From Prevotella sp. (GTDB taxonomy: Bacteria; Bacteroidota; Bacteroidia; Bacteroidales; Bacteroidaceae), in contig JAFZSL010000077.1 in assembly GCA_017619375.1 (NCBI GenBank), forward strand, positions 19,974 through 83,973: a DNA stretch of 64,000 nt. The letters run 5' to 3'. A program made the translations under genes and the position numbers. Shown here one piece after another: positions 4,034-62,138 of this stretch (position 1 is its first letter; each line of letters opens with the position of its first letter). The notes beneath the pieces are model-generated. The model was not told where the DNA came from. It searched no databases and was given only the letters and a program-made list of their open reading frames with translations.

Positions 4034-4342
4034 TTTTATGAGGCTTTTTATATATCACTTACATAACACTCCTTGACCTTTGGCCAAGGATGTCCAGGCA
4101 GATTTAACGCTACGGAAAGCCGTTCTCTGTTGGTCTACGGACTTTTAGGACTAAAAGGACTATAGGCGCCAATGGCGCCTTGTAATTTGTCTAAGGAGTC
4201 AAGGAGTATGGGAGTTTTTCATGCGCCAACGGCTCATCCTCCTTTACTCCTCAACTCCGTAGACAATATGGACAACACCAACGCCAACAATGTTCTGGTT
4301 GCAAACAGCGGATTAACATGAAAAGAAAAACTTAGTTTTCCT
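4034..4342. other. intergenic region with a shared short repeat and a small palindrome
   Basis: No gene is seen. A 31-bp stretch at 4134-4164 (CTACGGACTTTTAGGACT and on) recurs almost exactly at 50732-50763. A perfect GGCGCC-aat-GGCGCC hairpin follows at 4165-4179. The rest shows only short plus-strand complementarities. Confidence 0.5.
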
Positions 4343-4622
4343 TTTGTATTTCTCTCGACTTTTCGTAACTTTGCCACTTCATGGCGAAGTTACTGCTTCT
4401 CGGAATAAAAAATGAACTCGTTCGTTTTGTTCTTCTCTCGACTTTTCGTAACTTTGCCACTTCATGGCGAAGTTACTGCTTCTCGGGATAAAAAATGAAC
4501 TCGTTCGTTTTGTTCTTCTCTCGACTTTTCGTAACTTTGCAACTGCGTTGTGAAGTTACTGCGTCTCGGGATAAAAAATGAACCCGTTCATTTTGTTCTC
4601 CTCTCGACTTTTCGTAACTTTG
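4343..4622 (+). repeat. 83-bp tandem repeat carrying four consensus promoters ahead of rsfS
   Basis: Three full units and one partial unit, each offset by exactly 83 bp. Each has TTTG (4343, 4426, 4509, 4592), a 19-base spacer containing CTCTCGACTTTTCG, and TAACTTTG (4366-4373, 4449-4456, 4532-4539, 4615-4622). All four are full matches to TTTG-N19-TAnnTTTG. The -7 box lies in the left arm of an inverted repeat (GTAACTT...AAGTTAC), and the -33 box abuts a second one (AAAATGAAC..GTTCATTTT). Any copy could transcribe rsfS-ftsH-cdsA. Related units occur at 9152-9266, 38512-38622 and 61681-61711. Confidence 0.85.
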
Positions 4623-4710
4623 CAACCTTGAAACATCAAAAGGTGGGAAAAAACAAAGACACCACCTGTAAAGAAAACTAAAAGAATAGCATACAATTAA
4701 AACCGATTGA

Positions 4711-5070
4711 ATGGACAACGCAAAGCAATTAGTAGAAAACATCACAGCAGGAATCCAGGAAAAGAAAGGCCATGACATCGTGGTGGCCGACATGAAAAGC
4801 GTGGAAGGCGCCATCTGTCGTTATTTCGTCATCTGCCAAGGCAACTCCCCCATGCAGGTGGAGGCCATCAGCGACTCCATCAGCGACACCGTGCGTGAAA
4901 AGATGGGTGAGAAACCCGTGAAAGTGGTGGGACTGACCCTCGCCCACTGGGTGGCCATGGACTATACCGACGTCATCGTCCATGTTTTCCTGCCTGAGAC
5001 AAGAGCATACTACAACCTCGAGGCGCTCTGGGAAGACGCCAACCTCACCCGCATCCCCGACCTCGACTAA
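4711..5070 (+). CDS. rsfS: ribosomal silencing factor RsfS
   Basis: A 119-residue protein of normal length for RsfS (Iojap/DUF143). This factor binds ribosomal protein uL14 on the large subunit and blocks subunit joining when nutrients run low. Typical family segments are visible: DIVVADMK near residue 22, CRYFVICQGNSPMQVEAISD (31-50), and the C-terminal GLTLAHWVAMDYTDVIVHVF followed by RAYYNLEALWEDA. It opens a plus-strand cluster with ftsH 36 bp downstream and then cdsA. Transcription probably starts from one or more of four tandem promoters at 4343-4622; the nearest -7 box ends 88 bp before the ATG. Confidence 0.95.
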   Translation: MDNAKQLVENITAGIQEKKGHDIVVADMKSVEGAICRYFVICQGNSPMQVEAISDSISDTVREKMGEKPVKVVGLTLAHWVAMDYTDVIVHVFLPETRAYYNLEALWEDANLTRIPDLD

Positions 5071-9151: not shown

Positions 9152-9266
9152 TTTGACGATTTGCAAAAAATGCATTATTTTTGTATTTCAAACGAAGGTT
9201 GGATGCACCTCGGAAAAGGAAATTTGCTTGCAAATCATACTCTTCTCTCTGTATTCACAACCTTTA
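9152..9266 (+). promoter_or_regulatory. promoter unit plus a degenerate second unit, 83 bp apart
   Basis: TTTG (9152-9155), 20 bases, TATTTTTG (9176-9183). The leader then holds GGATGCACCTCGG (9200-9212), a hairpin ATTTGC-tt-GCAAAT and a decayed second unit, TTCTCTCTGTATTCAC then AACCTTTA (9259-9266). The two -7 positions are 83 bp apart, the same period as the repeat before rsfS. Confidence 0.7.
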
Positions 9267-9293
9267 TCCAATAAATCCATAACCATCAACACA

Positions 9294-10559: not shown

Positions 10560-10693
10560 AAAAAAATAGAAAATTGAAAATAGAAAATTGAAAATTGAAA
10601 ATTGCATTTTTGGAGCAGCGAGAGCAGAGTCAAACTTGTTTGAACTATGCCGAGTCGCGACAAAAATCAGCGAAGCTAAAATTTAAAATATCA

Positions 10694-10754: not shown

Positions 10755-11384
10755 TCACCTTGTCAAGTCAAAACCGATGCGCACCCCGTCATAGTTTTTG
10801 GACAGTTCGCCAATGGTCGACATCGTCGCATTGCCACTTGCAGCACCAACGGCCTGCAAGACGGTCAACAGTTTCTGTGACTCGAAGAGCAAACTCATGC
10901 CCGTGGTGTTGAGCATCACATATGCGTTCATGTTCAGAAGCAATGTCTTGAGCGCAATCTGTCCGCTGTTGGGATCCAGGACGTATGTGCCGCTTACCGT
11001 CTTCCCCGCCACTTTTCCAGAGAAAGTATTATCTTGTTTGAAAGTGAAGTAGGTGTTGGAAGAATTGATGCCAAGGGACGCGAAGGTCGATGCCAACTGA
11101 TTCTCCACCTTTTGTGCAGCCACCTCGCCGCCTGCCTGTGCCAATACGTTCTGACTGGTGAAGGCACAACCTGGAGAAGCATATTTCCATGTACCTATCA
11201 GATTCTGCTCAGTCACCTTGTTGGTTCCCAGCAAACCTCCCAGGACATTGCCCAACACACTGGCACCATCAACACCACTGAGAATGCCGTCCAAACCTGT
11301 ACCCGTTCCGGCACCACCCATGTTGCCGCAGCCAGCCATCATCAGCGCCGCCACGGCCATAACAATCATATTCCTTTTTTTCAT
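10755..11384 (-). CDS. DUF4923-like lipoprotein
   Basis: A 209-residue lipoprotein. The N-terminus MKKRNMIVMAVAALMMAGC has a lipobox with Cys19. Next come a Gly-rich linker and a domain with NLIGTWKYASPGCAF, FKQDNTFSGKVAGKTVSGTY and FESQKLLTVLQ. This layout resembles the DUF4923 family of Bacteroidales outer-membrane lipoproteins, whose function is unknown. I placed the start at 11384 rather than at a further upstream in-frame codon because the lipobox must be near the N-terminus. A -7-like box, TATTTTTG, lies on the minus strand at 11419-11426. It is transcribed away from the relaxase remnant. Confidence 0.8.
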   Translation of the reverse strand: MKKRNMIVMAVAALMMAGCGNMGGAGTGTGLDGILSGVDGASVLGNVLGGLLGTNKVTEQNLIGTWKYASPGCAFTSQNVLAQAGGEVAAQKVENQLASTFASLGINSSNTYFTFKQDNTFSGKVAGKTVSGTYVLDPNSGQIALKTLLLNMNAYVMLNTTGMSLLFESQKLLTVLQAVGAASGNATMSTIGELSKNYDGVRIGFDLTR

Positions 11385-11544
11385 ATCATAAGATTTTTCA
11401 CGATAAAACAATTTTCGGCAAAAATACACAAAAATCAGAAACACGAAACCTATTTGATGTTGAAAAAACAAAAAAAACGTCAAAATGTTAGTTTATCATC
11501 CCATCCTCTTGATTTTTCATCTTTTTTCAAGAAGAAACTATTGA

Positions 11545-12720
11545 CAGAAATCACTATTCCCCATAAGAAAGCCAAACCTTCATGCCCATATCATATGGGA
11601 CTGGATGAACCACGACACTGGAAAGTCATACAAACTCAATGCCGATGACATGTCAGAAATGCAGGACATGGTGGCTGAGACATTGGTGATGGAACGTGGG
11701 AGGAAAAAGGCAGAGACGGGTCTTGACCACCTGGAGCGTAATGACTTCATCCTGCAAAAGCAGAGAGAGGAACAAAAACGGCTTCAGGAGGAAACCGAAA
11801 AGGCTCTTGCCAAGAAGAAGGCAGCTGAGACACAGGCAGCCGAAGCCGAGAGGCAAAAGGCGGCAGCAGAGCAGCAGACGGCAACGGCCAACGCAGAGAA
11901 AGCAGAAGCCGAGGAAAAAGCCAGGGAGGCCAAGGAACAGCTTGCAACTGTCGAGGAACAGACGAAAGCCAAGGAAGATGCCATTGTCGAGTTGGATGAA
12001 CGTATCTCCAACAAGACAAGGAAGGACAACACCCTTGCCGCCGGGCTTATACAGAAAACCCATCAAGATAAGGTGCTGACTTCTGAGATTCAGTCAAAAC
12101 GTAGGAGTGTCAGGTCTCTTGACCGTGAAATCGAGAACAAGAGCGACATTCTTGATGGACTTGATGAGGAAATATCCGAAAAAGAAGAAACGATAAGCGG
12201 GCTTGATGCTGCCATCACGACCAAGACAGAAGAGATTGGCACACTTGATGCCGGCATTGAGGACAGAAACAAAACTGTTGGTGAACTTGACGAGCAGATA
12301 AACAGCTTATTGCTTGCTAAGCAGAATGCTCAGCTTAGTGGTGATTGGAAAGAGAAATTGCTACGGTCATTGGCTCTCTTGCTCTACAATTCAGATGAGA
12401 ATCTGAGGTCTTGCGTGAAAATCATCCAAGACTTCGCCTGTGCAAAACGCGCTGGCCGGGGTGGTGAGTACAAGGCTTGTTTCTGGGATCAAGAGTCATA
12501 CGTACTCAAAAGTTACATGGTTGCATTTTGCAACGCAACACAAGTAACAGTACTGCATGTGGCGAATTTCCTTACCTGGTTGGCTGGCGAGTTGGGCAAA
12601 TTCAATGACTATGAAAAGGGACGCGCCGCCCGGGAAGTCAACGATGTCGCCCTTGGTAAATACGATTGGCGCATCCAAAAACATATTGACAGAGGCGGTG
12701 GCAGAGGTAGAGGACGATGA
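11545..12720 (+). pseudogene. 5'-truncated MobV/Pre-type relaxase remnant
   Basis: The open frame runs from a stop at 11542 to 12720; the first ATG is at 11605 (371 residues). The start reads HAHIIWDWMNHDTGKSYKL, a stretch I know from the middle of Bacteroides mobilization (plasmid recombination/MobV) proteins just after the HxH metal motif. The N-terminal catalytic third is therefore missing. After that come a long coiled coil (about residues 40-240, rich in Glu, Lys, Ala) and the usual C-terminal domain with ENLRSCVKIIQDFAC and FLTWLAGELGKF. No missing N-terminus is found in other frames upstream, where the DUF4923 gene lies. It marks the left border of the accessory island and the former presence of a mobilizable element. 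Confidence 0.75.
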
Positions 12721-12762
12721 AACAATATCAGATGTTGTAATTTCTGAAGTTTGGTTTACATA

Positions 12763-12804
12763 TTTAGCCCGGCAATAGTTTCATTTGACTATTGTCGGGC
12801 TAAA
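12763..12804. terminator. bidirectional terminator between the relaxase remnant and the R-M operon
   Basis: A 17-bp stem with one G-T wobble: TTTAGCCCGGCAATAGT (12763-12779) and ACTATTGTCGGGCTAAA (12788-12804), with an 8-base loop. It is A/T-flanked on both sides and lies between convergent genes. Confidence 0.8.
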
Positions 12805-12811
12805 AATATCT

Positions 12812-12892
12812 TTATTTTTTCGGAGGTGGGGGCGGTGGAGATACAGGTTTCACCACTTCTAATTCCCTTTGGTTTGGATTATCATTACTCAT
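12812..12892 (-). CDS. 26-residue proline-rich micro-protein, translationally coupled
   Basis: A small ORF of 26 codons ending in PPPPPPKK. Its ATG (12890-12892) overlaps the TGA stop of the two-TM gene upstream in an ATGA (12889-12892), the same kind of overlap seen between other genes of this operon. It is followed within 8 bp by the operon terminator. The N-terminal half is polar (SNDNPNQRELEVV); there is no membrane helix or signal peptide. No homologue is recognised. The overlap and the position inside the terminator boundary are the evidence that it is translated. A random sORF here cannot be excluded. Confidence 0.5.
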   Translation of the reverse strand: MSNDNPNQRELEVVKPVSPPPPPPKK

Positions 12893-13485
12893 ACTCTTTG
12901 ATTATTTATGTTATTATTGAGAAAGTTTCTGTTGAAATAGTCTATTGTCTTTTTACGGATGTTTATTCGCTCATCATCTGTTAAATCTCGACATAGGCGA
13001 TTTAATCTAGATTCCATATCGACATCTGTTTTAACAATACTATTAAAACGGGATTCCATCTTAATGTCATCAACATCAGTATTTAAATAATAACGCTCCC
13101 TAAATAGTTTTTCCAATTTTTGTAAATATTCTTTGTAAAAATCGTATATCTTATCTATTTCCTTCAATTCTTCTTCCGCTTGAATAAAATTAGGTAAAAA
13201 CTCCTTAACTGTTGTGGTAATTGCAACAAAAAGAGCTAAGGAAAAAACTATCCATTTTGATAATTCACAATTATTAATAAGAGCGAGAAAAGCACAGATA
13301 AATGCTGAAATGATAGTAAGATAAGTTATTCTTCTATTGAGTCTTCTCTTCCTGTTAGTATAAAAATCTATCTGAAAAAGAAAACCTTTGACTTTATGCA
13401 TTTCATCCCAAACCCTATCAACAATCATTGATTCTTCGGGATCTTGGTTTTCGATAATCAATTCTTCTTCCATATTTTTCCCCAT
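12889..13485 (-). CDS. two-TM membrane protein, SLATT-like
   Basis: A 198-residue protein: a charged N-terminal helix (about 1-48), two close membrane helices (about 55-75 and 80-102), then a long charged helical tail. This is the layout of SLATT-domain proteins, proposed pore-forming effectors in phage-defence systems, but no signature is strong enough for a firm assignment. It overlaps the upstream 112-residue gene by 68 bp in another frame and the downstream 26-residue ORF by 4 bp. It therefore belongs to the methyltransferase/HNH operon, where a membrane effector would act if restriction fails (inference). An alternative start (MEEELI) lies 12 bp downstream. Confidence 0.65.
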   Translation of the reverse strand: MGKNMEEELIIENQDPEESMIVDRVWDEMHKVKGFLFQIDFYTNRKRRLNRRITYLTIISAFICAFLALINNCELSKWIVFSLALFVAITTTVKEFLPNFIQAEEELKEIDKIYDFYKEYLQKLEKLFRERYYLNTDVDDIKMESRFNSIVKTDVDMESRLNRLCRDLTDDERINIRKKTIDYFNRNFLNNNINNQRV

Positions 13486-25811: not shown

Positions 25812-26348
25812 TCCATCCTAATAGTTTTCTGTTAACGAAATGTAGTCTCGCTCGTTGATGGTTACGACTGTAATCTGCGTATTTTTACGATTATCTTTGC
25901 CATATTATCATTTCTAATGTAGATACATAGATTATGTTGTTAGAAAACTTGCGATTGTCCTAAACATATTCGCATACTGTGAGCAAAGATACATCCTTTT
26001 TTTCAGTTTTCGAGCATTTACAAGGGAAATTTAGGCTTTCATATAAATTCCATATGAAGAGACGCATAACCTAAGAGGTCAACTATTCGTCAAGGCAATA
26101 ATCTACTGAATACATTATGATTGATATTTCCACGCGGTGAGTGGAGAATCAAAAGCAATCCATTGTGAACGCTGTGAGTTCACAATCTATTAGAACTGAT
26201 ATTAAGTAAAATGACTTAATCTTCAAACCTGAAGGACTGAAATCTAAAATATGCAAGAATACTGTAAAGAGGAATATTCTCCATCCACCCTTGATCAATG
26301 TATGGCTTCATGGAACAACGCAACCCTATTTTTTCAAATAGACAATTA
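25812..26348. other. gene-free AT-rich region
   Basis: No gene is recognised. It contains isolated -7-like boxes (TATCTTTG at 25892-25899, and on the minus strand at 25984-25991) without good -33 partners, and an imperfect copy (26157-26191) of the palindrome at 33594-33630. Confidence 0.45.
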
Positions 26349-26434
26349 TTTTGCCAATTATGTGAGGGAATAATTTGGAATTTTGCCAATTTTGTGAGGG
26401 AACAACTTGTTTTTTTGCCAATTTTGTGAGGGAA
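26349..26434. repeat. three 22-bp direct repeats at a 32-bp period
   Basis: TTTTGCCAATTTTGTGAGGG-AA at 26349-26370 (one mismatch), 26381-26402 and 26413-26434, with 10-bp spacers. Too short and too few for a CRISPR. It lies 54 bp beyond the 3' end of the radical SAM operon. It could be a protein-binding array or the leader of a lost gene. Confidence 0.7.
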
Positions 26435-26487
26435 TTTTCACATACATCATAAAGTTTTTAATCGATGCGGATGGAAGTTTGTAAAGA

Positions 26488-38507: not shown

Positions 38508-38511
38508 TTTG

Positions 38512-38622
38512 CAAAGGTAGTGAAAACCGAGAGAAAAGCAAAATAAGCTTGCTTATTTTCTTATCCGAGGTGCATCCTACCTTCGCGTAAGCAAAGGTAG
38601 TGAAAACCGAGAGAAAAGCAAA
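38512..38622 (-). promoter_or_regulatory. two tandem consensus promoters, 80 bp apart
   Basis: Minus strand: TTTG (38539-38542)-N19-TACCTTTG (38512-38519) and TTTG (38619-38622)-N19-TACCTTTG (38592-38599). The unit has the spacer CTCTCGGTTTTCAC, the leader element GGATGCACCTCGG, a hairpin AAAATAAGC-aa-GCTTATTTT ending at each -33 box, and CGAAGGTA complementary to the upstream -7 box. It is the same family as the repeat before rsfS. Confidence 0.85.
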
Positions 38623-38690
38623 ATAAGCTTGCTTATTTTCTTTTCAGAGGTCAACAAATGAAGTTCCTGTCACAACTATGATTTGGTTGT

Positions 38691-39000
38691 TCACAACCAC
38701 CCCGCGCCCCTCCTTAGCCTAAGGAGGTTTTTTCACAACCACCCCGCCCCCTCCTTGTCCTAAGGAGGGTTTTTCACAACCACCCCGTGCCCCTCCGAAG
38801 GAGGTTTTTTCACAACCACCCCGCCCCCTCCTTGTCCTAAGGAGGGGCACCTACCCTCCCCCCGTCCCCCTCCCGACATCGGGAGGAGGCTCAACCGCAC
38901 CTACGCGGTGCTCGTTCATTAAGGTACCGCTCCCTTAAAAGCGGTCGCCGTGATTCCTTACGCAACAAAGTTGCGATTTTCCATGTTCGCTGCGCTCACC
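38691..39000. repeat. tandem AAGGAGG-hairpin repeats joined to a 190-bp dispersed repeat
   Basis: Four units of 36-42 bp start at 38691, 38733, 38774 and 38810: TCACAACCACCCCGC then a CCTCCTT...AAGGAGG hairpin, with T-runs after the first three (terminator-like). From 38811 to 39000 the sequence is repeated, inverted and about 97 percent the same, at 61850-62038. No gene is seen from 38623 to 39357. Confidence 0.8.
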
Positions 39001-39261
39001 TTGCTCAATGACTGAACTCAACTTCTGAGTTTGATTACTGAGTTCAATTTCTGAGTTCACGTTCTAAAGTCGGTGATAATGGCCGTGAGCAAAAGACCCG
39101 TGCGCATATTCCCTTTCCCTCGAGGGGATATGCACACCAACACTTTGCACAAGATATTTTCGGATATTTCGGCTATTGCGTGATTGTTTCAGGTGGTAAG
39201 CGTTTCGTGGTCACAAATAAAAAAAACAACAATCATGTTATGCTTTATGCATTTTTTCATT

Positions 39262-39357: not shown

Positions 39358-41613
39358 ATGCCCCCACTCCGAAGCACCATCATATCACTACTCCTTCTCC
39401 TCGCCGTCAACATGACAGCCGTAGCGCAAGATGATTTCCAACTCCGCATCGCATCGGTCGGGATGGAAGACATCAAGAACGACTGGAGCGACAGCACCGC
39501 CATCTTGCTGCCCATACCCACCTGCGCCTACGCCAATATCACAGGGATATCGGCACTGCCCAAGACAAAGACGGCCAATTACCACGGATGGCTGGAAGTC
39601 TACGACGGCAACGGCAATTATTTCAAGAAACGCATCATCATCAGCGCTCAAGGAAGGAGCGCCGTGTCCTATGCGAAAAAGAACTTCAAGATAGACTTCT
39701 GCGAAGATGAATGGATGGGCGAGGAGACAACCGACGTCACCTTCAGCGACTGGGTGACACAGGATGGATTCCACCTCAAGGCCTTCAGCTTCGACTGGTT
39801 CAAAGGCACGGGAATACAAGCCTACCGCACCTATGACCTTATGACTCGCGACCGTGGGGAATACGGACGTATCTGGGAACGGGCGAACATCAACAAGCCC
39901 GATGTCAAGGCCCTCTGCCACCCCGACGCTTTCCCCGTCGTCATCTACTTCAATGGGAAATTCCAAGGACTCTATTGCTGGCAGCTGAAGAAGCACCGCA
40001 AGAACATGAACCAGAAGAAGAACAACCCGGACCAAATCCACCTTGAAGGCTATCCACTCAACAAGCCCAACTTCTGGAATGGCGTGATCAATTGGAAACA
40101 GGTCTGGGTGCGCACGCCCAAGGACCTTTACGATATGGACGGCAAGGTGTACGACAGCGACAACCCCACCGAACTGATGGACGAAACCTCGCCCTATTAC
40201 AATTTGGAAACAGACGACGCAAAGACCAAGGAGCGCAAGCAGAACTCCGCCCTCGTGAAAGCGCACCTCGTAGAACTGAGCCATCGCTTCGAGGAACTCA
40301 ACACCCTTGTAGACAATGGTGCCAGCAAAGCCGAAATGCGCGCCGTCCTGGAGCAGATTTTCGACGTGCCTGGAATCATCGACTACATGCTCCACAACCT
40401 GTTGACCGTCAACTGGGATGGCGTGTGGATGAACTACCAGTGGTTCACCTACGACGGTTACAAGTGGTATGTGGCGCCATACGACCTCGACAACACTTTC
40501 GGATATGGGTCATACCGCATACTGCCCGGTGGCTATTACAACAATTTCAAACTGCTGTCCAAAGAAAACTTCATCCACAGCCCCACTTACTGGGTGTATA
40601 TCTATTTCAAACAGGATATGTTCAACCGCTGGGCGGAAATCAGGAACCAGGGATTCGTCACACCGGAAGTCCTCGCCTCGCTATTCGACACTTGGTACCA
40701 TTCCTTCGGAGAGGAAAACTACCGCTTGGAAAGAGAGAAATGGCCCACCAGCCAAAGCCTGCTGCCCGACATCGACAATGCGCCATGGGAACAACAGCCT
40801 TTCAATTACAACACCTTCAAGGACGCTCCCACCTGGGACGCCAACTCCACCTATAAAAAAGGCTATGTAGTGAAACTGGTGAACCGCATCTACAAGACCA
40901 ATGCGGACACAAAAGGCGTCAACCCCTATCAGCAAATCGGCAAGCTGGACAGCCTGGAACGCATCTATCCCTATCTGGTAACCCATATCAAGGCCTTGGA
41001 CCAACTCACAGGCTACACCTTCTCGCCGACCTTCATGTCACACATGCTCTACGTCTCGGCTGTGGGATGGGCCACCATCTGCCTGCCATTCCAGTTCGCC
41101 GTGCCAGAGGGAATGAGCGTATATGCCGTGAATGGCAAACGGGCGGATGGCAGACTCAACCTGGTGAAGGTGTCGTCGCCCGAGGCCAACAAACCCTACC
41201 TGGTGGAGGCTGCACCCGGCAACTACCTGCTCTCCGGCTATTCTGAAGAGCGGGACGGGGAGGAGAACGAACTACTTGCGGAGGGTAGCTTGCGCGGCAC
41301 ACTCGCCCCTCACTATGTGCCGGAAGGCTGCTACGTGCTGCAAAACCACAACGGGAACGTGGGGTTCTACAGGGTTGCCGAGAACGGCAAGGTGAGAATG
41401 GGGGCCAACAAGGCATGGCTGGTGCTCGACGAGAACGCATCCAACAACTACGTGCTTGATGACTACACCACCGATATCGCCAACGCCGCTGGCGACTCCC
41501 CGCAAGTGACAGACATCTACGACATGCGGGGCGTAAAGCGTTCCAACATCGGCAAAGGCATCAACATCATCCGATACAGCAACGGAAAGACGGTGAAGGT
41601 TATTGAAGATTGA
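39358..41613 (+). CDS. secreted CotH-family protein with C-terminal sorting tail
   Basis: A 751-residue exported protein. Signal peptide about 1-23 (SLLLLLAVNMTAVAQ), then a CotH-type kinase-like domain: IISAQGRSAVSYAKKNFKID, FDWFKGTGIQAYRTYDLM, FPVVIYFNGKFQGLYCWQLK and VAPYDLDNTFGY with the DxDN-like motif. The C-terminus ends IYDMRGVKRSNIGKGINIIR followed by YSNGKTVKV, the pattern of Prevotella C-terminal domains used by the type IX secretion system, whose SprA pore is encoded next door. Start placed at 39358 because the signal peptide begins there and the promoter -7 box is downstream of the longer start. Surface location is likely; substrate unknown. Confidence 0.83.
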   Translation: MPPLRSTIISLLLLLAVNMTAVAQDDFQLRIASVGMEDIKNDWSDSTAILLPIPTCAYANITGISALPKTKTANYHGWLEVYDGNGNYFKKRIIISAQGRSAVSYAKKNFKIDFCEDEWMGEETTDVTFSDWVTQDGFHLKAFSFDWFKGTGIQAYRTYDLMTRDRGEYGRIWERANINKPDVKALCHPDAFPVVIYFNGKFQGLYCWQLKKHRKNMNQKKNNPDQIHLEGYPLNKPNFWNGVINWKQVWVRTPKDLYDMDGKVYDSDNPTELMDETSPYYNLETDDAKTKERKQNSALVKAHLVELSHRFEELNTLVDNGASKAEMRAVLEQIFDVPGIIDYMLHNLLTVNWDGVWMNYQWFTYDGYKWYVAPYDLDNTFGYGSYRILPGGYYNNFKLLSKENFIHSPTYWVYIYFKQDMFNRWAEIRNQGFVTPEVLASLFDTWYHSFGEENYRLEREKWPTSQSLLPDIDNAPWEQQPFNYNTFKDAPTWDANSTYKKGYVVKLVNRIYKTNADTKGVNPYQQIGKLDSLERIYPYLVTHIKALDQLTGYTFSPTFMSHMLYVSAVGWATICLPFQFAVPEGMSVYAVNGKRADGRLNLVKVSSPEANKPYLVEAAPGNYLLSGYSEERDGEENELLAEGSLRGTLAPHYVPEGCYVLQNHNGNVGFYRVAENGKVRMGANKAWLVLDENASNNYVLDDYTTDIANAAGDSPQVTDIYDMRGVKRSNIGKGINIIRYSNGKTVKVIED

Positions 41614-41650
41614 CCTTCGGTCGAAGTTGCTCACGCTCGGCAGAACTCAA

Positions 41651-41741
41651 GCAAGCTTGGTCTGCTCTCGCTTAATCGCAACTTTGAAAATTAATTTTAA
41701 GCATGCTTGGTCAGCTCCCGCTTAATCGCGACATTGAAGAT
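41651..41741. repeat. two 41-bp direct repeats, 50 bp apart
   Basis: GCAAGCTTGGTCTGCTCTCG and on at 41651-41691 matches 41701-41741 with about 7 differences. They lie between the CotH and dockerin genes and contain CTTAATCGC(A/G)AC. Confidence 0.65.
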
Positions 41742-52334: not shown

Positions 52335-52585
52335 AATGATCTATTTTCTTTCACTTTTTCTTACTATTTCTGCCCGTCAGGGCGCTCCCCATGCCACACC
52401 ATCATCAGCATCTCCAATTCATCCATTTTCTTACCATTTTCTTACACATTTTCTTATCATTTCTGCCCGTCAGGGCACTTCCTATGCATACCATCATCAG
52501 CATCACCATTACATCTATTTTCTTACCATTTTCTTACACATTTTCTTATCATTTCTGCCCGTCAGGGCACTTCCTACATCACGCC
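52335..52585 (-). repeat. three tandem ~92-bp repeats at the 3' end of hypD
   Basis: The hairpin word TGCCCTGACGGGCA occurs three times (TGCCCGTCAG on plus at 52371, 52464, 52556; spacings 93 and 92 bp), each followed on the minus strand by GAAATG and TAAGAAAATG repeats. The hypD stop (52574) lies within the first unit read from hypD. The hairpins may stop transcription. Confidence 0.75.
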
Positions 52586-54976
52586 ATCATTCTCCGTCCT
52601 CGCGATGATTTCGTTTTGCAGTTGCTCCGTCATGTCGTTGAAATAGTCGGAGTATCCGGCGACGCGCACGAGGAGGTCGCGGTAGTCTTCAGGATGTTGC
52701 TGGGCATCGCGTAGAGTGGCGTTGTCGATGATGTTGAATTGGATGTGATGCCCTCCCATTTTGAAATAGGTGCGTATGAGACTGGCTAATTTCCTCATAT
52801 CCTCCTCCCTTTTGAGCATGTTTGGCACGAAGCGTATGTTGAGCAAGGTCCCACCGCTTTTCGTCTGGTCGAGTTTTCCCAATGACTTCACCACGGCTGT
52901 GGGGCCGTGGGTGTCGGCGCCATGTGCGGGCGAGGTGCCGTCGCTGATGGCGAAATGGGCGAGACGTCCGTTGGGGGTGGCTCCGCAGACCTGTCCGAAA
53001 TAGTTGTGGCAGGTGGTGCTGAGCATGTTGAGGTGTGTCTGTCCACCCCGGGTGTTGGGTCTTCCCTCGATGGCTTTCACCAGGTCGTCGTAGATGCGTA
53101 CGGCGATGTTGTCGGCCTCGCTGTCATCATTGCCGAAGAAGGGTGTGTGGTTGAGGATGTACTGCCGCATTTTCTCCTCTCCCTTGAAATTGTCGCGCAG
53201 GGCGTCGAGCATCTGCCGCATGGTGTATCTTTTCTCGTCAAACACGTGTTTTTTCAAGGCGGAGAAACTGTCGGTGAGCGTGCCTAAGCCTGTACATTGT
53301 ATGTATGTGGTGTTGTATCGTGCCCCGCCACCGTAGTAGTCTTTTCCCTTTTCTATGCAGTCGTCGATGAAGAGGCTGAGAAACGTGGCAGGCGCATAGA
53401 GTGAGAACATCCGCTCGATGTAGTTGTTCACCGCGAGTTTCATGTTGACGAAATGCTCCATCTGACTGCGCCACGCCTCATAGAGTTGCTCGAAGGAGTC
53501 GAACAGCGTAGGGTCGCCCGTCTGGAGGCCGAGGCGCTTCCCCGTCTCAGGGTCCACGCCGTCGTTAAGTGTGATTTCAAGGATTTTCGGGGTGTTGAGG
53601 TATCCGGTGAGGAGGTAGGCTTCCTTTCCGAAGGCACCCACCTCGATGCATCCCGAGCACCCTCCCTCCCGGGCGTCCTCCACCGTCTTCCCGGCGCGCA
53701 CCATCTCTTGCACATAAGTATCGGTGTTGAAGATGGAGGGGTAGCCGTGGCCTTGCCTGATGACCTTGATGCCTTCGATGAGGAAAGCGTCAGGGGTGTC
53801 GTGGGCGATGTGTATGCTCAGGCCGGGCTGCAACTGATGCAGTTCTTCCTGGATTTCCAAGATGATGGAGGAGAGTTCGTTGGCGGCGCTGCGTCCCTCT
53901 CGGTCCACGCCGCCGATGTTGATATTTGTGAAATCGTTGTATGTCCCTGATTCCAAGGCCGTCACGCCGACCTTTGGCGGTGCCGGCTGGTTGTTGAATT
54001 TCACCCAAAGGCAACTCAGCAGTTCCTTGGCATCTTCGCGTGTCAGCGTATGGCTTTCCAACCCTTTCTGATAGAAGGGGAAGAGGTGCTGGTCGAGATG
54101 GCCGGGATTCATCGAGTCCCAACCGTTGAGTTCGGTGACGGTGCCGAGATGCACGAACCAATACATCTGTATGGCTTCCCACAGGTCTCTTGGCGCATGG
54201 GCGGGCACGTGATGACACACGTCGGCGATTTTCAACAGTTCTTCACGGCGCCGGGGGTCGCTCTCCTCGGCTGCCATATCCTCTGCCAGACGGGCGTGGC
54301 GCTCGCCGAAAAGGATGGCGGCGTCGCATGAGATAGCCATGGCTTCCAGTTCCTGCTGCTTGTCGGTGGCCTCGGGGTCGTGGATGTAGTCGAGGGTGGC
54401 GATGCGCCGTTCGATGCGTTCCTTCACGTCAAGCAACCCCTCGTGGTACATCTTGCCATCCATGGCGGTGTGGCCGGCGGCACGCTGTTCCATGAACTCA
54501 GTGAACACCCCGGCGTGGTAGGCTTCCTCCCATTCCTTTGAGACATGGTTGAAGATACGCTCGCGCTGAGTCTTGCCCTTCCAATAAGGAATCACCTCGC
54601 GCTCATAGGTGTCGATGTCTTCCTGACTGATATGATAGGGTTGCAGTGGGCGTTCGTTGAGCGTATGTAGGTCTTCCACCGTGTGGCAGGTGAGTTCCGG
54701 GAAGGTGGGGACGGCCTTGGGCCGTGGTCCGCGTTCCCCCACGATGAGTTCGTCGGGGCCTATGTAGATGGTCTTTTTCTGACACAGTTCAAAAAAATTG
54801 CGGGCACGCAACACGGCGATGGGCATCGTGCCGGCATTGGCCTTGTAGAAGGCTGTCTCTATCAAGGCGCGTTCGATGCTTAGCGTGGTGGGCGTGTCGA
54901 AATTCTGCTGTCGCAAGCGCCTGATGCGGGCGTTCATGCCCCTGTCGTTCTCGGGATGTTTGATGGTTGGTTTCAT
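52574..54976 (-). CDS. hypD: trans-4-hydroxy-L-proline dehydratase (glycyl radical enzyme HypD)
   Basis: An 800-residue glycyl radical enzyme that removes water from trans-4-hydroxy-L-proline to give pyrroline-5-carboxylate. GGCSGCIEVGAFGKEAY holds the thiyl Cys443 and Glu445, and RVAGYSDYF holds the radical Gly774. From memory, the substrate-site residues of the C. difficile enzyme are His160, Asp278, Ser334, Asp339, Phe340, Cys434, Glu436, Tyr450, Thr645 and Gly765. Each is matched here at a constant offset of +9 (His169, Asp287, Ser343, Asp348, Phe349, Cys443, Glu445, Tyr459, Thr654, Gly774). Start at ATG 54976 (MKPTIK). It is 27 bp after an ATPase gene; no pyrroline-5-carboxylate reductase is in the window. 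Confidence 0.88.
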   Translation of the reverse strand: MKPTIKHPENDRGMNARIRRLRQQNFDTPTTLSIERALIETAFYKANAGTMPIAVLRARNFFELCQKKTIYIGPDELIVGERGPRPKAVPTFPELTCHTVEDLHTLNERPLQPYHISQEDIDTYEREVIPYWKGKTQRERIFNHVSKEWEEAYHAGVFTEFMEQRAAGHTAMDGKMYHEGLLDVKERIERRIATLDYIHDPEATDKQQELEAMAISCDAAILFGERHARLAEDMAAEESDPRRREELLKIADVCHHVPAHAPRDLWEAIQMYWFVHLGTVTELNGWDSMNPGHLDQHLFPFYQKGLESHTLTREDAKELLSCLWVKFNNQPAPPKVGVTALESGTYNDFTNINIGGVDREGRSAANELSSIILEIQEELHQLQPGLSIHIAHDTPDAFLIEGIKVIRQGHGYPSIFNTDTYVQEMVRAGKTVEDAREGGCSGCIEVGAFGKEAYLLTGYLNTPKILEITLNDGVDPETGKRLGLQTGDPTLFDSFEQLYEAWRSQMEHFVNMKLAVNNYIERMFSLYAPATFLSLFIDDCIEKGKDYYGGGARYNTTYIQCTGLGTLTDSFSALKKHVFDEKRYTMRQMLDALRDNFKGEEKMRQYILNHTPFFGNDDSEADNIAVRIYDDLVKAIEGRPNTRGGQTHLNMLSTTCHNYFGQVCGATPNGRLAHFAISDGTSPAHGADTHGPTAVVKSLGKLDQTKSGGTLLNIRFVPNMLKREEDMRKLASLIRTYFKMGGHHIQFNIIDNATLRDAQQHPEDYRDLLVRVAGYSDYFNDMTEQLQNEIIARTENDGVM

Positions 54977-61673: not shown

Positions 61674-61680
61674 GGAAATG

Positions 61681-61711
61681 CAAAAGTAGTGAAAACCGAG
61701 TGGAATGCAAA
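61681..61711 (-). promoter_or_regulatory. promoter unit of the hairpin-repeat family before the MATE gene
   Basis: TTTG (61708-61711), 19 bases ending CGGTTTTCAC, TACTTTTG (61681-61688). The -33 box lies in the right arm of a hairpin (AAAGCAAAAA...TTTTTGCTTT), preceded by GATGCACCTCGG (61739-61750), as in the units at 38512-38622. Confidence 0.8.
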
Positions 61712-61849
61712 GCAAAAAGAAAATTTTTGCTTTCATTCCCGAGGTGCATCTGAAGATTGAAGATTGACCTTTTTCACATCGTGAGAAGGTAGGATGCACC
61801 TAATCATATAACAAAATTGTCGATGATGTCGAATGGACGTTTGATCAAG

Positions 61850-62038
61850 GTGAGCGTAGCGAACAAAGGTAATCGCAACTTTGTTGCGTAAAAAATCACG
61901 GCGACCGCTTATAAGGGAGCAGTACCTTAATGAACGAGCACCGCGTAGGTGCGGTTGAGCCTCCTCCCGATGTCGGGAGGGGGACGGGGGGAGGGTAGGT
62001 GCCCCTCCTTAGGACAAGGAGGGGGCGGGGTGGTTGTG
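61850..62038. repeat. inverted copy of the 190-bp repeat at 38811-39000
   Basis: From GGTGAGCGTAGC to GGGGTGGTTGTG the sequence is the reverse complement of 38811-39000 with only a handful of changes. It includes the CTCCTCCCGATGTCGGGAGG hairpin and the AAGGAGG hairpin. No gene lies between 61712 and 62177. Confidence 0.85.
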
Positions 62039-62138
62039 AATCATCCAAGCCACCATCAAATCATTCGTGAAAGGACAAAAAGCATCGTCCTGGGACGAAT
62101 AAGCTTGAAAAAAGTTGGAAGTGAAGGTGTTTTTTTTA

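Follow-up and report, generated by a model that had tools for sequence, protein, structure and literature searches.

The Correia repeat-enclosed elements of Neisseria are palindromes of ~100–150 bp that occur in many copies and can supply the promoter of the next gene. They have fixed inverted repeats and a short target duplication and, to our knowledge, are not known for arrays of whole promoters or for covariation between an arm and a -7 box. The REP/BIME sequences, which go together with RAYT (Y1) transposases, are numerous intergenic palindromes that form arrays and DNA hairpins. The attC sites of integrons have a conserved GTT/AAC core.

The nearest Bacteroidales repeat that we found described is BrickBuilt, a MITE reported from Porphyromonas gingivalis strains that has a 23-nt repeat, IS-like ends GAGACCTTTGCA and bidirectional promoters; it differs from the repeat studied here in its ends, its unit and its range (PMC4596501). 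Promoters of the Frpo kind are described in the leading regions of conjugative elements, and their secondary structure mimics double-stranded DNA (PMC11541004). The -7 consensus TAnnTTTG comes from start-site mapping in Flavobacterium psychrophilum, and this box is known outside the Bacteroidales (PMC9723704). A literature search covering the best-ranked matches and few subscription journals yielded no description of the repeat studied here.

Here we describe what, as read from the DNA, is a family of ~65–90 bp palindromic modules of the Bacteroidales, each unit of which forms one long imperfect palindrome. Its units and the Correia elements are both multicopy palindromes that can provide the next gene with a promoter. 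Unlike the REP/BIME sequences, the units have variable stems, most of the counted ones contain a promoter, and no Y1 transposase was found in their host genome. An integron attC site was rejected as an identity, as arms such as CTACCTT, CTATCTT, and CTATATT have no GTT/AAC core. The likeness to BrickBuilt lies in a dispersed intergenic Bacteroidales repeat with inverted ends and internal tandem repeats, and with promoter activity in BrickBuilt; moreover, some BrickBuilt ends contain ACCTTTGCA, which resembles the -7 box (PMC4596501). In contrast to BrickBuilt, the arms of the units vary with the -7 box, the repeated unit is a whole promoter, and several Bacteroidales groups are involved. The units also have neither the GAGACCTTTGCA ends nor the 23-nt repeat, a separation made by description and not by alignment. 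With Frpo and ssi the units share promoter boxes placed in the stem of a folded strand, yet they are genomic and multicopy and in the window stand before genes like rsfS, unlike the conjugative leading regions described for Frpo (PMC11541004). They have the -7 box of the Bacteroidota sigma-A promoter and, in the counted units, its -33 TTTG at ~17–22 nt, whereas their left arm, CTCGG word, and nested palindrome are absent from the sigma-A consensus (PMC9723704).

The window, that is, the whole 64,000-nt stretch of the Prevotella sp. genome that was analysed, contains 14 occurrences of TTTG-N18..22-TAnnTTTG, as compared with a mean of 0.93 and a maximum of 6 in 60 dinucleotide-preserving shuffles. 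The preliminary description had listed four promoters 83 bp apart upstream of rsfS, one promoter and a decayed second unit upstream of an LRR gene, two units 80 bp apart at a PH/dacB operon, and a single unit at a MATE gene. All of them were confirmed at the positions given in Table 1, the spacing at rsfS being exact and the gene called dacB being a peptidase S13 by Pfam. The tandem repeat score (TRF) of the rsfS array was 481. The genes behind the units, namely rsfS, the LRR gene, the PH/peptidase S13 operon, and the MATE gene, have the Pfam names RsfS, LRR_5, Peptidase_S13, and MatE; the match of the PH domain was slightly under the cut-off (22.5 vs. 22.9 bits). Two members lay beyond the four loci of the preliminary description, one promoter-dead and one weak. 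The promoter-dead member belongs to the class T4 and starts 5 bp past the end of an ORF, as delimited by a crude ORF rule.

Table 1. Members of the repeat family and the rsfS gene in the window (positions count from the first nucleotide of the window).
Feature	Position	Strand	Promoter	Score (bits)	Details
rsfS array, first promoter (basal)	4285–4377	+	4343–4373; TTTG at 4343, end of TAACTTTG at 4373	27.9	Inner palindrome, without left arm or CTCGG word
rsfS array, unit 2	4382–4460	+	4426–4456; TTTG..TAACTTTG	95.9	Left arm GCGAAGTTAC, CTCGG word, inner palindrome, CTCTCG, -7 box GTAACTTTGC
rsfS array, unit 3	4465–4543	+	4509–4539; TTTG..TAACTTTG	94.8	
rsfS array, unit 4	4548–4626	+	4592–4622; TTTG..TAACTTTG	87	
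rsfS, 3' of the array	4711–5070	+			PF02410
LRR gene, promoter 1	9152–9183	+	TTTG..TTATTTTTG		
LRR gene, decayed unit	9190–9270	+		68.6	Decayed -7 box CAACCTTTA; outer arms AAGGTTG/CAACCTT still complementary
Weak promoter-less member	10601–10673	-		23.8	Words CGACTCGGC..CTCTCGCTG; arms by eye ATTTTTG/CAAAAAT
PH/peptidase S13 operon, proximal unit	38508–38588	-	38512–38542	84.6	Arms AAGGTAG/CTACCTT, word GGATGCACCTCGG
PH/peptidase S13 operon, distal unit	38588–38670	-	38592–38622	49.1	No recognisable left outer arm
Promoter-dead 72-bp member of the T4 class	41619–41690	+		42.4	Arms CGAAGTTGC/GCAACTTTG, words TCACGCTCGG/CTCTCGCTTAATC
MATE gene unit	61677–61763	-	61681–61711; TTTG..CTACTTTTG	34.8	GGAATG..CATTCC forms the base of the inner palindrome; no recognisable left outer arm

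Other repeats are also present in the window. Another dispersed repeat, 200 bp or more in length and with GC-rich hairpins and arms that are 95% complementary, occurs at 38809–39008 and 61841–62040 in opposite orientation. A 92-bp unit that lacks the words typical of the promoter units is repeated in tandem at 52343–52590 (2.7 copies), and about three tandem copies of the 32-bp unit ATTTTGCCAATTTTGTGAGGGAATAACTTGGA lie at 26348–26435.

When the units were read side by side, they showed a common plan. From the 5' end, it often starts with a mini-hairpin (GGC-TTC-GCC, GACC-TTC-GGTC, or others), followed by a left outer arm, typically CGAAG plus four bases, and a left word ending in CTCGG. Then come a variable inner palindrome, a right word starting with CTCG (variants CTCGATTTTTC, CTCGGTTTTCA, and CTCGCTTA[AT]TC), and finally the -7 box itself as the right outer arm (GTAACTTTG, CTACCTTTG, CTATCTTTG, CTATATTTG, TTAACTTTG, and others). 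Of the two promoter boxes, the -33 TTTG thus falls within the 3' arm of the inner palindrome, whereas the -7 TAnnTTTG falls within that of the outer stem. Read in reverse complement, the left arm repeats the -7 box of its own unit, in most cases with a single G-T close to the foot of the stem. At least eight different complementary end sequences occur among the units, most of them matching the unit's own box. First units of arrays and some solo units (the MATE unit, the distal PH/S13 unit, L069, and L104) have no left arm, and one array (L005/L011) alternates different inner palindromes. The word CTCGnTTnnTCGTA was found upstream, with up to three mismatches, in 83 of 125 units and in 13 of 125 shuffled ones. 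In G065, a related genome, the mini-hairpin and left arm (TTTTGGCTCCGCCGAAAGTAC-like) stand about three times before one unit (L202, 2025–2255), and the left half alone seems to multiply there.

The distribution of the family was examined with covariance models. The first model (R1) was built from eight units of the window and two other host loci. It gave at least 138 matches at E ≤ 10 and 102 at E ≤ 0.01 in the host genome (4.26 Mb, 99.98% complete), so that the units were not absent elsewhere in the genome, the point on which the preliminary description had set its profile search as a test. The same search extended to related Prevotella genomes, where R1 at E ≤ 0.01 matched 17 of the 23 other sampled genomes of the genus, with at least 1 to 74 matches each, and six had none. 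A second model (R2) at E ≤ 1e-4 matched at least 39 of 246 other Bacteroidales genomes and 0 of 197 others in a sample drawn across the phylum; the 20 of these 197 that were listed belong to other orders of the same class. Per genome, 150 candidates were scored in the host, 116 in the genus, 26 in the phylum, and 21 in the Bacteroidales, the last two under stricter filters, and all copy numbers and genome counts are lower bounds. A pattern with one base free per side hit at least 119 contigs. Among the 80 titles listed were Prevotella, Bacteroidaceae, Muribaculaceae, Alistipes, Minthosoma, and Porphyromonadaceae; all 80 are presumably Bacteroidales, judging by name. Cultivated carriers among these hits include Prevotella ruminicola KHT3 and Prevotella sp. 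AGR2160. A phage origin was examined with the single pattern TCTCGNTTTTCACTANCTTTG, which gave 0 matches in viral contigs.

Many host matches lie in arrays with a spacing of 72–88 bp, for example, four in a row on contig C61, five on C48, and three each on C34 and C11. Arrays of the promoter type run to the contig ends on C11, C17, C23, and C54, and T4 copies do so on C45 and C62, which is expected if near-identical units break the assembly. For the unit tables, 103 of 128 matches were carried over; the 25 that were dropped were overlapping loci, several T4 copies, and weak second copies. Pairs of carried units had a median identity of 0.84 when both lay in the same array (29 pairs) and of 0.60 when they came from different arrays (5224 pairs).

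The pairing of the arms outside the host genome was examined by a search of genome contigs with a pattern in which one base per side was free and the other arm bases were fixed. The two free bases were complementary in 120 of 125 distinct units, whereas 10000 shuffles gave 46 on average and never more than 66; here and below, the shuffles preserve the make-up of the columns and not the relatedness of the units. With both arms free and only the words T...GCTCGG and CTCGCTTA.TC given, at least eight of nine arm positions were paired in 103 of 120 units (shuffled mean 79, maximum 87), a set that includes contigs fetched with the one-base-free pattern. For units of the GATGCACCTCGG type, the arms-free test is a weak one: at least six of seven positions were paired in 14 of 16 units (shuffled mean 10.6, maximum 14) and, in a looser set, in 19 of 22 (mean 14.1, maximum 19). 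Only the 'n' position of the -7 box stood out in this type (15 of 16 vs. 5.7 when shuffled).

A gapless alignment of 40 units from named genomes (66 nt) showed 12 pairs that had changed on both sides, a number reached by 0 of 500 shuffles. The rows had been picked for at least seven of nine outer-arm pairs, which favours the outer stem; 10 of the 12 pairs lie in the inner stem. The structure was 96% paired, and sliding it by one to three columns reduced this to 30–50%. Three further pairs between the words were added by RNAalifold. The base before CTCGG and the base after CTCG formed a Watson–Crick pair in 177 of 200 distinct units from all loci examined (G-C 98, A-T 38, T-A 22, and C-G 19), whereas the shuffled mean was 72 and the maximum 92. 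As for DNA folding, five window strands folded only modestly better than their shuffles (z from -0.3 to -2.0) and three units of named genomes showed z from -2.8 to -5.1.

A -7-like box (up to one mismatch) also stands upstream of 98 of the 125 units, 38 of these boxes being mismatched. The same box was present on both sides in 80 of the 98, the boxes differed in 14, and the arm fitted neither in 4. Where they differed, the left arm followed the unit's own box in 13 of 14 cases, about four of the assignments being doubtful. Pairing of the left arm with the upstream -7 copy is therefore disfavoured, with 80 of the 98 units uninformative on this point. The upstream copy is recurrently changed from TAACTTTG to TAACGTTG on the named contigs L240, L243, L260, L267, L293–L295, L297, and L317; this suggests either an inherited subfamily or selection against an upstream start.

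Promoter content was counted in two sets of units. Of the 86 promoter-type units carried over from the host genome, 71 had TTTG-N18..21-TAnnTTTG and 73 had the -7 box, a share biased upward because R1 was built from promoter-bearing units. In named genomes, where the pattern left the -33 box unspecified, TTTG stood 17–22 nt from the -7 box in 100 of 125 units and in 6 when the inner part was shuffled. The predicted promoter role of the units is well supported by these counts. The 3' half would act as the housekeeping (sigma-A-type) promoter of the gene behind it, and an array would offer several start points and probably more transcription; in this way units might set or multiply expression, as the preliminary description proposed. 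That the repeat carries a consensus promoter, as the preliminary description had it, thus holds for most counted copies and fails for the T4 class (0 of 17 units).

On the reverse strand, TTTG stood 16–22 nt from TAnCTTCG in 64 of 125 units and in 4 when shuffled. The unit thus comes close to a bidirectional promoter, and we infer that one side of it may be broken by the G-T position. The same counts bear on a single-stranded promoter of the Frpo kind. In such a case, folding of the template strand would render both boxes double-stranded and allow RNA polymerase to start on single-stranded DNA after transformation or conjugation. The reverse complement, with TTTG before TAnCTTCG in 64 of 125 units as against 4 shuffled, is in line with this, as is the double-stranded DNA mimicry reported for Frpo (PMC11541004). 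Of the Frpo feature itself, both boxes being double-stranded, the pairing is backed by covariation, while the reverse -7 box has a C (TAnCTTCG) and the reverse -33 box is found in the 64 of 125 units only. However, the window units precede ordinary genes (rsfS and the S13 peptidase) and no known leading region, their folding energies are modest, and the T4 copies have no promoter. We therefore consider this explanation quite improbable.

The T4 class comprises 17 carried units that follow the same plan, most of them with the arms CGAAGTTGC/GCAACTTTG, and a promoter was found in none of them. The class is under-counted, since T4 copies on other contigs or contig ends are among the dropped rows. 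By a crude longest-ORF rule, 8 of the 17 follow a same-strand ORF at a distance of 5–17 bp. Other promoter-less copies, whose arms are very different and yet complementary, are CGACCATTT/AAATGGTTG (L166) and ATAAATCGC/GCGATTTTG (L051); at L278, the arms CGAGACTGC/GCAGCCTTG have one mismatch. As promoter-less copies keep both the words and the complementary arms, the fold and the words appear to be what makes a member: judged by these copies, it is the nested palindrome with conserved internal words, and not the promoter, that defines the family. The T4 class shows that the repeat can exist without a recognisable promoter, which would then be one use of the family.

These copies also bear on the reading that the units are ordinary strong promoters with a preferred spacer (CTCG..), AT-rich upstream palindromes, and occasional duplication. 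The 3' half does occur alone: in ~1 Mb of G065, 10 of 21 extended-spacer promoters had, under the criterion applied, no complementary left half, although some of the 10 look like partial left halves. However, the arm and the -7 box, as well as the spacer pair, change together in several Bacteroidales groups, and the words are conserved in the promoter-dead copies. In addition, 0 of the 197 other genomes of the phylum sample had a match, although the -7 box is known outside the order (PMC9723704). Ordinary promoters are thus a very improbable explanation.

The type of mismatch was examined in 125 units, over the seven flush pairs with which the inner stem begins. Of the 875 cells, 755 were Watson–Crick, 13 G-T, 12 A-C, and 95 other. 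Selection on one RNA strand should prefer one of the two mismatches, whereas they are equally frequent here; this favours maintenance of complementarity at the DNA rather than the RNA level. Two features speak against maintenance at the DNA level: the conserved stretches that stay unpaired, and the recurrent G-T near the base of the outer stem. The latter was found in 188 of 239 units of a loose set and a Watson–Crick pair in 12, many of these units having been fetched by a pattern that fixes the G-T.

The opposite reading is a structured RNA: the unit would be transcribed from an upstream promoter and fold in the 5' UTR as a stabiliser, attenuator, or terminator, with the pairing selected in RNA. 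The strong compensatory changes agree with it, and so do the placing of each array unit within what the preceding promoter would transcribe, the recurrent G-T wobbles of the outer-stem base on the plus strand only, and the place of T4 copies just 3' of genes (8 of 17). Meanwhile, G-T is no commoner than A-C in the inner stem (13 vs. 12), and the -7-like box that would drive transcription stands upstream of 98 of 125 units, yet is mismatched in 38 of them. Rfam 15 had no match at gathering thresholds within the window, and in eight further loci it had three matches, all under the gathering scores. The best of these was to Acido-Lenti-1 RNA at L056 (503–548; 27.2 vs. a cut-off of 37 bits). Taken together, we regard a structured RNA as a doubtful explanation.

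The turnover of units was examined by comparing the host genome (G000) with G065, the closest among 60 genomes drawn (FtsH 93% identical). The comparison covers ~1.0 Mb of the 5.1 Mb of G065, for which the record gives 7% contamination. Eighteen promoter-type loci were displayed against the G065 flanks in global alignments, in which gaps outside shared stretches are arbitrary. The number or type of units differed at nine of the 18 (rsfS, L015, L032, L096, L098, L099, L104, L108, and L111), the direction being ambiguous because recombination loss of units looks like gain. For instance, four promoters precede rsfS in G000 and one in G065, and the -7 box and downstream sequence of unit 4 are common to the unit-free orthologous promoter of G065. 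The inner palindrome was replaced at two further loci (L036 and L065). Five loci were alike (L030, L031, L068, L107, and L116), L031 of G065 having a repeated left half, and two (L094 and L100) fall in neither group. At L036, the G000 arms AAGTTAA/TTAACTT correspond to AAGGTAA/TTACCTT in G065, both sides having changed together at a single orthologous site; at L030, the arms of G065 were not compensated.

The cleanest case was L108, where G065 has two extra 73-bp units in direct repeat right behind the -7 box, as against a single promoter, preceded by the same palindrome, in G000. At rsfS, L015, L096, L099, and L104, the shared sequence starts at or near the -7 box, which could reflect insertion at that place or plain conservation of the box. 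The 87-bp units at L028, L059, and L030 were 91–94% identical with flanks of 46–59%, and those at L010 and L011 were 89–90% identical with flanks of 44–49%. Dispersal of units to new loci is thus supported, as far as such comparisons go. L020, L032, L063, L104, and L106 share a longer upstream repeat. At several of these five loci, sequence resembling the end of the other dispersed window repeat (at least 200 bp), with a tail like CATTTTGTGTGTTGCCCAATTCGTTACTCGG, leads straight into the first unit, so that some units terminate a larger repeat. At L155 of G065 (~11250–13160), an extra gene, which we take to resemble an AAA-ATPase/PD-(D/E)XK gene, has tandem units directly upstream and lies between the units and the following gene of G000.

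Five T4 loci were also compared with G065, and no T4 copy was found in any of the five G065 segments. Both flanks aligned at three of them (L072, L076, and L077), with a clean empty G065 site in GAAGATT heptamers at L076 and L077. At these two loci, heptamer-like repeats GAAGATTGAAGATT adjoin the gene ends in both genomes, and the T4 copies are inserted within them. Similar heptamers are also marked at 41600–41620 and 61750–61770 of the window.

The preliminary description had proposed a family of mobile or duplicating promoter cassettes. The differing unit numbers of the two species and the near-identical copies at unrelated loci bear out the mobile or duplicating part. A fixed cassette, on the other hand, does not fit, because the 5' arm changes along with the -7 box of its own unit.

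The same comparison bears on a transposase-driven MITE with terminal inverted repeats and an incidental outward promoter, whose arrays would be nested insertions. Near-identical copies at unrelated loci, species-specific occupancy, inverted ends, and T4 copies in heptamer repeats that are empty sites in G065 speak for such an element. Nevertheless, the ends are variable (at least eight sequences, most of which follow the -7 box of the unit itself), whereas a transposase requires ends that stay the same. A clean short target duplication was not seen: at the filled site of L201, set against L108, the flanks are repeats of the promoter's 3' half, and the heptamers at T4 sites would mask a duplication. 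Nor did the host genome contain a Y1 transposase, the sole transposase class searched: PF01797 had 0 matches in this 99.98% complete genome. We consider a MITE of this type unlikely. PF01797 was matched at E ≤ 0.001 in 8 of 13 genomes searched, including G016, which itself has no R1 match. RAYT/IS200-type mobilisation was rejected as the resident mover, since PF01797 was not found in the host genome.

What the sequences themselves show is the family with its pairing and tandem arrays, the turnover between two species, and the promoter-dead class. The reading that we consider probable, although by no means certain, is a promoter-bearing palindrome of the Bacteroidales that duplicates in place, has one arm re-templated from the other, and disperses. 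Extra units would arise by unit-length duplication or by insertion right behind an existing -7 box, which would leave a module between direct repeats of the promoter's 3' half. One arm would most likely be re-templated from the other by fold-back template switching, with selection for the hairpin perhaps helping, and copies would also spread to new loci. The two unpaired internal stretches and the outer-stem G-T argue against pure template switching, since copying alone would erase them.

A bolder form of this reading, which we offer as a tentative possibility, is a self-copying promoter. Here, the module would be a fold and not a fixed sequence: the replicating strand would fold back and write the -7 box into the opposite arm. 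A whole unit would then be added, so that the array would be built from the gene's own promoter, with arms re-templated from their partners. With its boxes written twice, the folded template strand could also serve as a promoter.

If the promoter-bearing palindrome behaves as proposed, many genes of carrier genomes would start inside a recognisable palindrome of variable copy number, and this would be one way in which gene expression comes to differ between gut and rumen species. The arrays may also explain contig breaks. The family would provide a natural promoter library for an order poor in genetic tools. With its coordinated changes at two distant positions and hardly any wobble intermediates, it would also open fold-back template switching in the intergenic DNA of bacteria to direct testing. 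If the self-copying form is true, bacteria would breed and stack promoters without a dedicated transposase.
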